Source: Streptomyces sp. B21-105 (GTDB lineage: Bacteria > Actinomycetota > Actinomycetes > Streptomycetales > Streptomycetaceae). Taken from it: 64,000 nucleotides of DNA. Position 1 is the first letter of the stretch, and every line of letters starts with the position of its first letter. The position numbers were made by a program, and so were the translations under genes. The stretch lies in contig NZ_JARUMJ010000001.1 in assembly GCF_036898465.1 (NCBI RefSeq), positions 4,278,001-4,342,000 of the forward strand. The letters run 5' to 3'. Positions 21,618 to 48,979 of the stretch are shown here, piece after piece. The notes under the pieces were generated by a model. It had not been told where the DNA came from and ran no database searches. It worked only from the letters and a program-made list of their open reading frames with translations.

Positions 21618-21893
21618 TCAGCCACCGGCGACGGCCGGAATGATCGATACGCCGGCGCCGTCCGGAGTCGCCGTCTCGAGGCCCTGCTCGAAGCGGACGT
21701 CGTCGTCGTTCACGTACACGTTGACGAACCGGCGCAGCTTGCCCTGGTCGTCGAGGACGCGCGCGGCGATGCCGGTGTGGTTCTTCTCCAGGTCGGAGAT
21801 GACCTCGCCGAGGGTCACGCCCTCGGCCGGGACCTCGGCCTGACCGCCGGTGTAGGTGCGCAGGATGGTCGGGATGCGAACAGTGACGCTCAT
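21618..21893 (-). CDS. MoaD/ThiS-family ubiquitin-like sulfur-carrier protein
   Basis: 91 residues with the beta-grasp pattern MSVTVRIPTILRTYTGGQAE, VTLGEVISDLEKNHTGIAAR, FVNVYVNDDDVRFEQGLET and VSIIPAVAGG. The exposed C-terminal Gly-Gly is what is adenylated and thiocarboxylated in MoaD, ThiS and CysO. No cleavage is needed because the protein ends in GG. Its ATG overlaps the thrC stop (ATGA), so the two are coupled and both lie under the SAM riboswitch. Known carriers give sulfur to molybdopterin, thiazole, cysteine or, in some bacteria, homocysteine. The thrC partner points to the last (inference). The activating enzyme (MoeZ-type) must be elsewhere. Confidence 0.92.
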   Translation of the reverse strand: MSVTVRIPTILRTYTGGQAEVPAEGVTLGEVISDLEKNHTGIAARVLDDQGKLRRFVNVYVNDDDVRFEQGLETATPDGAGVSIIPAVAGG

Positions 21894-23191
21894 GATGCGA
21901 GGCCAGCCTCTCGGAAAGAGTCCAGGTTGGGGCGGATGGTCGCGGTGAGTCCGGTGCCGGCCACCGCGTCCAGGGTCTTCAGGCCGTCGCCCGTGTTCAG
22001 GACGACGGTGGTCTTCGTCGGGTCCAGCAGACCGTTCCCGATCAGCTTCCTCGTCACGCCCACGGTCACACCGCCGGCCGTCTCCGCGAAGATGCCCTCG
22101 GTCCGCGCCAGCACCTTGATCGCGTCGACGATCTGCTCGTCGTTCACGTCCTCCACCGCGCCGCCGGTGCGCCGGGCGATGTCGAGGACGTACGGGCCGT
22201 CCGCCGGGTTGCCGATGGCCAGCGACTTGGCGATGGTGTTCGGCTTCTGGGGGCGGACCACGTCGTGCCCGGCCTTGTAGGCCACGGACACCGGGGAGCA
22301 GCCCTCCGCCTGAGCGCCGAAGATCTTGTACGGCCGGTCCTCGACCAGCCCGAGCTTGATCAGCTCCTGCAGACCCTTGTCGATCTTCGTGAGCTGGGAG
22401 CCGGACGCGATGGGCACCACCAGCTGCTCGGGCAGCCGCCAGCCGAGCTGCTCGCAGATCTCGTACGCCAGCGTCTTCGAGCCCTCGGCGTAGTACGGCC
22501 GCAGGTTGACGTTGACGAAGCCCCAGCCCTCGCCCGCCGGGTCGCCGATGAGCTCGGAGCAGAAGCGGTTGACGTCGTCGTAGTTGCCCTCGATGCCGAC
22601 GAGCTCGCCGCCGTAGATCGCGGCCATGACGACCTTGCCCTGCTCCAGGTCGTGCGGGATGAACACGCAGGAGCGGAAGCCGGCGCGGGCGGCGGCGGCG
22701 CCCACGGCGCCGGCCAGGTTGCCGGTGGAGGAGCAGGAGAGCGTGGTGAAGCCGAACGCGCGGGCGGCCTCGATGGCCTGGGCGACGACCCGGTCCTTGA
22801 AGGAGTGCGTCGGGTTGCCTGAGTCGTCCTTGATGAAGAGCTTCCCGGCGTCGACGCCCAGCTCGCGGGCCAGGTTGTCGGCCTGCACGAGCTTGGTCCA
22901 GCCGGGGTTGATGTTCGGCTTGTCGGCCACGTCCGCCGGGACGGGCAGCAGCGGCGCGTAGCGCCAGATGTTCGCGGGCCCCGCCTCGATGCGCTTACGC
23001 AGCTCCTCCGTGTCGTAGGAGGAGAAGTCGTACGCGATCTCGAGCGGGCCGAAACACTCCTCGCACGCGAAGACCGGACCGAGGGGGACGCGGTGGCCGC
23101 ACTCGCGGCAGCTCAACGCGGTGGCCGGACCGAGGTCGACAGCGGAGGACGTCGTAGAGTCGGTGGTGCTTGCAACAGTCTGCGCAGCCAT
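21890..23191 (-). CDS. thrC: Threonine synthase-like PLP enzyme (ThrC family)
   Basis: 433 residues. The N-terminal zinc-ribbon-like motif is SCRECGHRV ... ACEECFGP (four Cys, about 27-47). The PLP-binding Lys is in GNPTHSFKDRVVAQA, followed by the Ser/Thr loop LSCSSTGNLAGAVGAAAARA and the phosphate loop IASGSQLTKI. Family reaction: O-phosphohomoserine to threonine. Two facts argue for another or extra role. A SAM-I riboswitch lies directly upstream, and the gene is coupled to a sulfur-carrier gene. From memory, Streptomyces also have a hom-thrC-thrB cluster elsewhere that serves threonine synthesis. Use of phosphohomoserine with carrier-bound sulfur to make homocysteine is inference. Confidence 0.9.
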   Translation of the reverse strand: MAAQTVASTTDSTTSSAVDLGPATALSCRECGHRVPLGPVFACEECFGPLEIAYDFSSYDTEELRKRIEAGPANIWRYAPLLPVPADVADKPNINPGWTKLVQADNLARELGVDAGKLFIKDDSGNPTHSFKDRVVAQAIEAARAFGFTTLSCSSTGNLAGAVGAAAARAGFRSCVFIPHDLEQGKVVMAAIYGGELVGIEGNYDDVNRFCSELIGDPAGEGWGFVNVNLRPYYAEGSKTLAYEICEQLGWRLPEQLVVPIASGSQLTKIDKGLQELIKLGLVEDRPYKIFGAQAEGCSPVSVAYKAGHDVVRPQKPNTIAKSLAIGNPADGPYVLDIARRTGGAVEDVNDEQIVDAIKVLARTEGIFAETAGGVTVGVTRKLIGNGLLDPTKTTVVLNTGDGLKTLDAVAGTGLTATIRPNLDSFREAGLAS

Positions 23192-23211
23192 GTGAGGCGA
23201 GGCCCTTTCTC

Positions 23212-23370
23212 CTCATCTTCCTCACGACGCACTTCGCCGTGAGACGGATTTGGCACCTTCCCGAGCCGGGAGCCTCGCTGAACGATCAACACTGATCGCT
23301 GATCTACGAGAACCGACTGGAGGGTTGCCGGGGCTTCATCGGGCCGTGTCCCTCTGCCCCTCTGGATGAG
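23212..23370 (-). promoter_or_regulatory. SAM-I (S-box) riboswitch upstream of thrC
   Basis: Reading the minus strand from 23370: CTCATCCAGAGGGGCAGAGG, ACACGGCCCGATGAAGCCCC, GGCAACCCTCC, a variable P3 arm, GGTGCCAAATCC, the P4 stem CTCACG ... CGTGAG, and closing GATGAG. CTCATC and GATGAG form P1. The core GGCCCnATGA, CCGGCAACC and GGTGCCAA is the conserved SAM-I set. P1 ends directly against GGAGAAAGGG, the thrC ribosome-binding region, so ligand binding would probably block translation start. The thrC ATG is 20 nt further on. Confidence 0.93.
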
Positions 23371-23575
23371 CGGTATTCGGTTGTTGATCTGTGCGCGCCG
23401 ATCACCCTGACATGCGATGGTCACCGGCGTTGTCCAAGACTGTAACCGAAGGCCAGGACAGTTGAGATAGTCGTCCGAACCGCGAGACGGATCACGCAGG
23501 ACCGTACGCGCCGAGAGAATGCCGCGAGACGCGAGACGCCGAGAGACGCCGAGAGAACACAGAGGAGCCGCCGAC

Positions 23576-48658: not shown

Positions 48659-48979
48659 GCGCGGCCGGAGCCCCCGATGCGGTACGGACCGACGGGCCGT
48701 CGGCCGGAAAGCCTGTGGAGCCCGTGTAAGACCGGTCAGGCGCAGCTCACAGGGCTGTGTGTGGCCGGCGGCGGGCGGTGAAGCAGGAATCAAGGTCAAA
48801 AGTGCGGTGCTCTGCCTCGGTCGAGAATTTCCGCGAAGTTCACATGCCTTCGGGTACTGACAGATCCGGCGAACGCGGGGTAGCGTCCTGACCCAGTTCG
48901 CTCATGTGGACTACACCAACCACCTTCCTACAACGGATCGTCCGGCACGTTCCTGCCGGTAGAAGGGGGCCTCAGAGCC
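48659..48979. other. 321-bp stretch between tnpB remnant and msiK
   Basis: The first 180 bp look like the right end and guide-RNA region of the decayed tnpB element (structured GC-rich DNA, then AGCAGGAATCAAGG near 48783). The rest is the msiK promoter region, less GC-rich, with a DasR-like 12-mer at 48907-48918. No gene is supported. Confidence 0.55.
48907..48918. promoter_or_regulatory. DasR-like site upstream of msiK
   Basis: TGGACTACACCA matches the DasR core at 10 of 12 positions and the nagK site (TGGACTAGACCT) at 10 of 12. It lies 62 bp before the msiK start. Control of msiK by amino-sugar supply would fit because MsiK energises the chitobiose/GlcNAc importers. Confidence 0.5.

Follow-up and report, generated by a model that had tools for sequence, protein, structure and literature searches.

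The window, as the whole 64,000-nucleotide stretch under analysis is called here, carries on its reverse strand a riboswitch leader followed by two overlapping genes, here named metM and metO. Its host genome, taken as a Streptomyces of the class Actinomycetes from its gene content and from the preliminary description, spans 9.2 Mb in 3 contigs. The features, in plain terms, are as follows.

23210..23372, reverse strand: SAM-I (S-box) riboswitch aptamer in the metM leader (RF00162)
23204..23214, reverse strand: candidate ribosome-binding region GAGGAGAAAGG, read from the sequence and putative in function
21890..23191, reverse strand: metM, a thrC-like PLP enzyme of 433 amino acids with an N-terminal four-Cys ribbon (TIGR00260, PF00291)
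21618..21893, reverse strand: metO, a ThiS/MoaD-type sulfur-carrier protein of 91 amino acids with the C-terminus VAGG (PF02597)

The aptamer matches the full RF00162 model (positions 1-108) with 76.9 bits (gathering score 44.4; E 2.5e-16), and is the sole SAM-I match found with Rfam across the host genome. Following it after a gap of 18 nt, metM is the first same-strand gene on its 3' side, reading from an ATG at 23191 to a stop at 21890. In profile searches MetM passes the TIGR00260 threonine synthase model (263.7 bits, cut-off 167.1) and the cut-off of the PF00291 PALP family, and falls under that of PRK08197 (253.8 bits, cut-off 303). The metM stop and the metO start share the bases ATGA (21893-21890). 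Directly downstream of metM, MetO belongs to the PF02597 ThiS family (61.3 bits), ends in PAVAGG and finds its best match among solved structures in 3dwg (E 7e-32), which we take to be CysO of Mycobacterium tuberculosis. On the 3' side of metO, open frames read as a cold-shock protein and GroEL. The order proposed in the preliminary description, a SAM-I aptamer, a thrC-like gene and an overlapping carrier ending in Gly-Gly, is thus confirmed by the Rfam match, the profiles and the ATGA overlap; the interval of 21618..23370 given there holds the right elements and stops two bases short of the aptamer end at 23372. Elsewhere in the window an msiK RNA (RF01747, 59.7 bits, Rfam) lies at 48915-48974.

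The leader itself suggests how the switch may act. The first five bases of GAGGAGAAAGG, GAGGA, are also the final bases of the aptamer match, that is, of the 3' strand of P1. In all 19 same-genus metM leaders displayed the string GATGAGGAG recurs, with the P1 3' strand GATGAG continuing into GAGGAG(AAAGG). A pattern scan of the leader found no terminator between the aptamer and the metM start, and this, together with P1 running into the presumed ribosome-binding region, suggests that the switch is probably translational; translational shut-off would be the likeliest mode. The leader is like other SAM-I (S-box) RNAs of RF00162 in matching the whole model, and differs in the terminator, none being seen here. 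In the window, 17 nt separate GAGGAG from the metM start codon, so that ribosomes may in fact bind at the neighbouring AGAAAGG. The minimum-energy fold of the leader, at z -1.6 relative to shuffled sequences, adds little.

The locus was compared across 196 genomes of the class, the host included, the same set being searched with every probe. MetM matches separated into a group of at least 59% identity, taken as MetM, and one of at most 38%. MetM by this definition occurs in 135 of the 196 genomes, a few of the genes being cut by contig ends, and all 135 carry a SAM-I match above the gathering score upstream on the same strand. The distance from the aptamer to the first aligned codon has a median of 26 nt and a maximum of 894, the latter where just a later part of the gene aligned. 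The arrangement of SAM-I, metM and metO is conserved and is therefore not a product of chance. Away from metM, nine SAM-I matches were seen in class genomes, three of them below the gathering score; those above it lie in G100 (C24:288093), G048 (C13:31549), G132 (C1:1504714), G021, G027 and G056.

An ordinary ThrC is found in 191 of the 196 genomes, the other five all being without MetM, so that each of the 135 MetM genomes has a separate one. In the count of paralogues that the preliminary description had called for, none of the 196 genomes had metM as sole thrC, a state which the description had named as contrary to its reading. The description had also asked whether riboswitch, enzyme and carrier always travel together; this holds for riboswitch and enzyme (135/135), whereas the carrier is linked in 102 genomes and not in 31, the metM genes of the remaining two being cut by contig ends.

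MetX was scored as present in 117 genomes at 313 bits or more and in two more with contig-edge pieces (G180, G151). Six intermediate matches of 90 to 164 bits (G119, G046, G017, G187, G190 and G080, all MetM genomes) were counted as absent in a strict tally and as present in a looser one. MetX accompanies MetM in 62 of 135 genomes (68 in the looser tally) versus 57 of the 61 without MetM (Fisher p 2e-11 or 8e-10, related genomes being treated as independent). MetM and MetX do not strictly exclude each other, since 62 to 68 genomes hold both, and MetM is accordingly not always the sole homocysteine route. MetA was found in just four of the 196 genomes and in none of the 73 (looser, 67) MetM genomes without MetX. 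In the window's own genus 13 of 19 genomes (looser, 12) are without MetX. Four class genomes have neither MetM nor MetX; one of these, G069, has MetA, and another, G071, has at the edge of a contig a SAM-I piece of a weak 29 bits, suggestive of a gap in the assembly.

A second class of RNA points in the same direction. Among 396 genomes sampled from the phylum, 143 have MetM at E values up to 1e-100, and 123 of these lie outside the class; 121 out-of-class metM loci were examined, 120 of them with upstream DNA. Directly upstream of metM, SAM-I stands in 93 of these 120, a T-box in three and neither in 24. The T-boxes precede metM at 102.9 bits (L179), 90.6 bits (L190) and 75.1 bits (L182) against an Rfam gathering score of 93, the two below that score coming from a more permissive scan of 11 loci, with the other loci screened by motif. 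In the genomes concerned, G401, G416 and G198, the specifier loops read GAA-C-AUG-C, GAA-C-AUG-U and GAA-C-AUG-A, respectively. Two further distinct leaders come from loci titled Chloroflexi: L311, with GAA-G-AUG-A read by eye, and L297, where a T-box with GAA-U-AUG-A, recognised by eye and by pattern, stands after a SAM-I-like aptamer. Another locus, L341, titled Ktedonobacter, shares 496 of 500 leader bases with L311. The specifier is thus AUG, for methionine, in five of five distinct metM T-box leaders, in keeping with the earlier argument that SAM control of the gene points to methionine rather than to threonine. In L297 the tandem of SAM-I-like aptamer and AUG T-box (about 909-1480), lying before metM and a carrier gene, would from its sequence unite two methionine sensors in one leader.

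The reading of the specifiers was calibrated on nine T-boxes of other genes, drawn from the same and related genomes and confirmed by profile, with L287, L289 and L291 left out. Seven calibrators have loops of 8 nt (leuA CUC, citramalate synthase AUC, pheS UUC twice, glyQ GGC, and ileS AUC twice, one ileS T-box being from the window's genome), and two have loops of 7 nt with the codon directly after GAA (trpE UGG, aspS GAC). The metM loops are of 8 nt, like the seven, so the AUG reading holds; read as 7-nt loops they would give a codon other than methionine, such as CAU. Minimum-energy folds of T-box stem I contribute little, L190 being the one case of six with a clear advantage over shuffled sequences. 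The five leaders may stem from fewer than five origins, since the three T-box-linked MetM proteins of the phylum sample share 70-72% identity and the other two were retrieved by a query that included these three. Downstream of metM-metO in G401, genes read as a sulfite-reductase-like protein and APS reductase, which fits sulfur delivery. Motif matches with one mismatch at L185, L255, L269 and L353 were taken as chance, SAM-I being present instead in the last three. The host genome itself has a weak T-box-like leader before aspS (L288 1501-1737, at C1:3669479; 61.7 bits, below the cut-off), whose 7-nt loop carries the specifier GAC, for aspartate.

The 24 out-of-class loci with neither RNA are so classed at the thresholds used, one of them having just 83 nt of upstream DNA, and another regulator may act there. 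Three of the 24, L185, L234 and L244, also have no linked carrier. A carrier follows metM in 96 of the 121 out-of-class loci, and three of the others have less than 600 nt of downstream DNA. A scan of GTDB yielded at least 586 metM loci, of which the best 80 were examined. Their titles, which may err since nearly all the loci come from metagenome bins, are mainly Chloroflexi, Nitrospirae/Nitrospira, Aquificaceae and Actinobacteria including Acidimicrobiia, with two archaeal ones (Geoglobus and Candidatus Pyrohabitans) among these best 80. A carrier follows metM in 71 of the 80 and a SAM-I-like pattern precedes it in 27; the pattern picks out all 29 leaders that are positive with Rfam and none of 13 others.

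The carrier nevertheless is not universal. Within the class, 102 genomes have metO in the first 1500 nt downstream of metM and 31 do not, the counts resting on 133 genes because two of the 135 are contig-cut. These 31 loci can be read to mean that MetM turns O-phosphohomoserine into homocysteine, or a relative of homocysteine, with free sulfide or another donor, MetO having some other task, and MetX is indeed commoner without a linked metO (21/31 vs 41/102; Fisher p 0.008, looser 0.014). Against this, the carrier is linked in most loci across several phyla, and each of the 31 metO-less genomes has a CysO adjoining cysM; we regard this reading as improbable. In 23 of the 31 the MetO probe found no carrier besides CysO. 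Ten of the 31 (looser, nine) are without both MetX and MetA, and nine of those ten (eight of the nine) have a single carrier. No divergent metO was seen right after metM in the 31 loci, none of the open frames ending in Gly-Gly; the check took in no more than five open frames from the first 900 nt at each locus, several loci being shorter and L123 reaching just 362 nt. Several of the 31 loci have a cold-shock gene or groEL downstream of metM, as the window has downstream of the pair.

A tree of 95 carriers was built from 24 linked to cysM (20 of them from metO-less genomes), 36 linked to metM within the class and 35 linked to metM in other classes, drawn at random from 95 such carriers. The metM-linked and cysM-linked carriers separate with 100/100 support, on 92 columns and with long branches flagged by the program, so that these metO-less genomes keep CysO rather than a relocated MetO. 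As metO is present in most other lineages, it has presumably been lost in these. In the ten (nine) genomes that also are without MetX and MetA, CysO may then feed both cysteine and methionine. We lean slightly towards a proposal in two parts, that in metO-less lineages MetM uses CysO, one thiocarboxylated carrier serving both CysM for cysteine and MetM for homocysteine, and that two unrelated devices, SAM-I and a methionine T-box, control metM, once in tandem.

The remaining gene complement of the host bears on the same question. A second, ordinary thrC, 36% identical to metM, lies in a cluster reading lysA-hom-thrC-thrB-rho, just where the preliminary description had expected it, so that the housekeeping place in hom-thrC-thrB is filled by a gene other than metM. 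MetX gives weak local matches alone (best E 2.7e-6) and MetA gives no match in the genome, and a homocysteine route is therefore missing that metM-metO would supply. A cysO-cysM pair lies elsewhere, with a JAB-domain gene (PF14464, Mec-like) about 6.4 kb away. The host CysO (L005 1862-2140, reverse strand; C1 about 3697265-3697543) ends in VAGGMA, two residues past Gly-Gly, and unlike MetO would need trimming before activation.

Three host proteins are strong matches to the Cys/Met PP family, one passing the cut-off for cystathionine gamma-synthase and one that for cystathionine gamma-lyase. The L008 protein scores 680 bits on PRK07811 cystathionine gamma-synthase (cut-off 513) and could in principle use O-phosphohomoserine in the plant manner, supplying homocysteine in a genome without MetX and MetA and leaving metM-metO to make another sulfur compound. 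The genome's only SAM-I match, however, sits on metM, and the metM of relatives has T-boxes reading methionine, so that this division of labour appears very improbable.

The enzyme was aligned in 192 rows (171 distinct sequences) and compared with ThrC, represented by three sequences of the genus. The MetM rows retain two features of ThrC, the STGN loop and the NPTxSFKDR motif with the PLP lysine K132. At positions conserved in at least 97% of MetM rows, by contrast, MetM and the host ThrC differ many times, among others at R231, Y234 and S238, which lie in what we take to be the substrate-phosphate-holding loop of ThrC, and at A262-S263-G264, which replaces GNA. The motif NxNxRPYYAEGSK of MetM thus stands against NSVNPVRIEGQK in the three same-genus ThrC compared. 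Kept PLP motifs beside conserved differences make the early ThrC chemistry plausible and a changed final step likely; the water attack that is the last step of ThrC has likely been replaced in MetM by that of a sulfur nucleophile. That metM might instead be a second threonine synthase, its riboswitch merely balancing O-phosphohomoserine between threonine and methionine, has the faintest chance of being right and was rejected, because, for all that MetM passes TIGR00260 and keeps the PLP lysine motif, an ordinary ThrC is present in 135/135 MetM genomes and relatives' T-boxes read AUG, threonine supply fitting neither these nor a SAM aptamer, and because the conserved departures from ThrC and the linked sulfur carrier speak against it as well.

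The homocysteine route is thus the interpretation supported here, with MetM as a predicted O-phosphohomoserine-dependent homocysteine synthase. Very likely metM-metO is a SAM-repressed operon making homocysteine from O-phosphohomoserine and MetO thiocarboxylate, a model whose substrate, sulfur donor, product, and switch direction and mode we infer from sequence and genomic context. In it, the ordinary ThrB would provide O-phospho-L-homoserine, whose phosphate MetM would remove in a PLP-dependent step before adding sulfur, which MetO would bring as its C-terminal thiocarboxylate; the homocysteine released would be methylated to methionine. When abundant, SAM would bind the leader aptamer and stabilise P1, hiding the start of the ribosome-binding region and lowering translation.

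Three known systems offer comparison. Hasebe et al. are said to have described MetM/MetO in Streptomyces in 2024, in Appl Environ Microbiol, under the title 'Discovery of a novel methionine biosynthetic route via O-phospho-L-homoserine', homocysteine reportedly being formed there from O-phosphohomoserine and thiocarboxylated MetO. The window shares with that system a thrC-like gene with a sulfur-carrier gene behind it and a host without the usual route, and no difference can be named in the window. CysM/CysO of Mycobacterium tuberculosis convert O-phosphoserine to cysteine; they are alike in pairing a PALP-fold PLP enzyme with a ThiS-like carrier, 3dwg being the best solved match of MetO, and differ in that the host has a separate cysO-cysM and MetO falls outside the cysM-linked carrier group. 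In HcyS/HcyD/MetY of Wolinella, a MetY-type enzyme of the Cys/Met PP family makes homocysteine from O-acetylhomoserine and carrier-bound sulfur. Carrier-bound sulfur for homocysteine is the likeness, whereas in the window there is no MetY-type enzyme beside MetO, MetM is a PALP-fold relative of ThrC, and MetX is absent. The core metM-metO route is reportedly already known from the 2024 work on MetM/MetO; possibly new are the methionine T-boxes on metM and the 31 class genomes without a linked metO.

For the biology of the group, metM-metO would account for methionine synthesis in those Streptomyces that have neither MetX nor MetA. Annotation can easily obscure the route, since the naming profile TIGR00260 calls MetM a threonine synthase; it can be recognised by an upstream RNA sensing SAM or reading methionine, by an ordinary ThrC elsewhere in the genome and by the conserved motifs. 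The metM genomes with neither a linked metO nor MetX make the sharing of one carrier directly testable.
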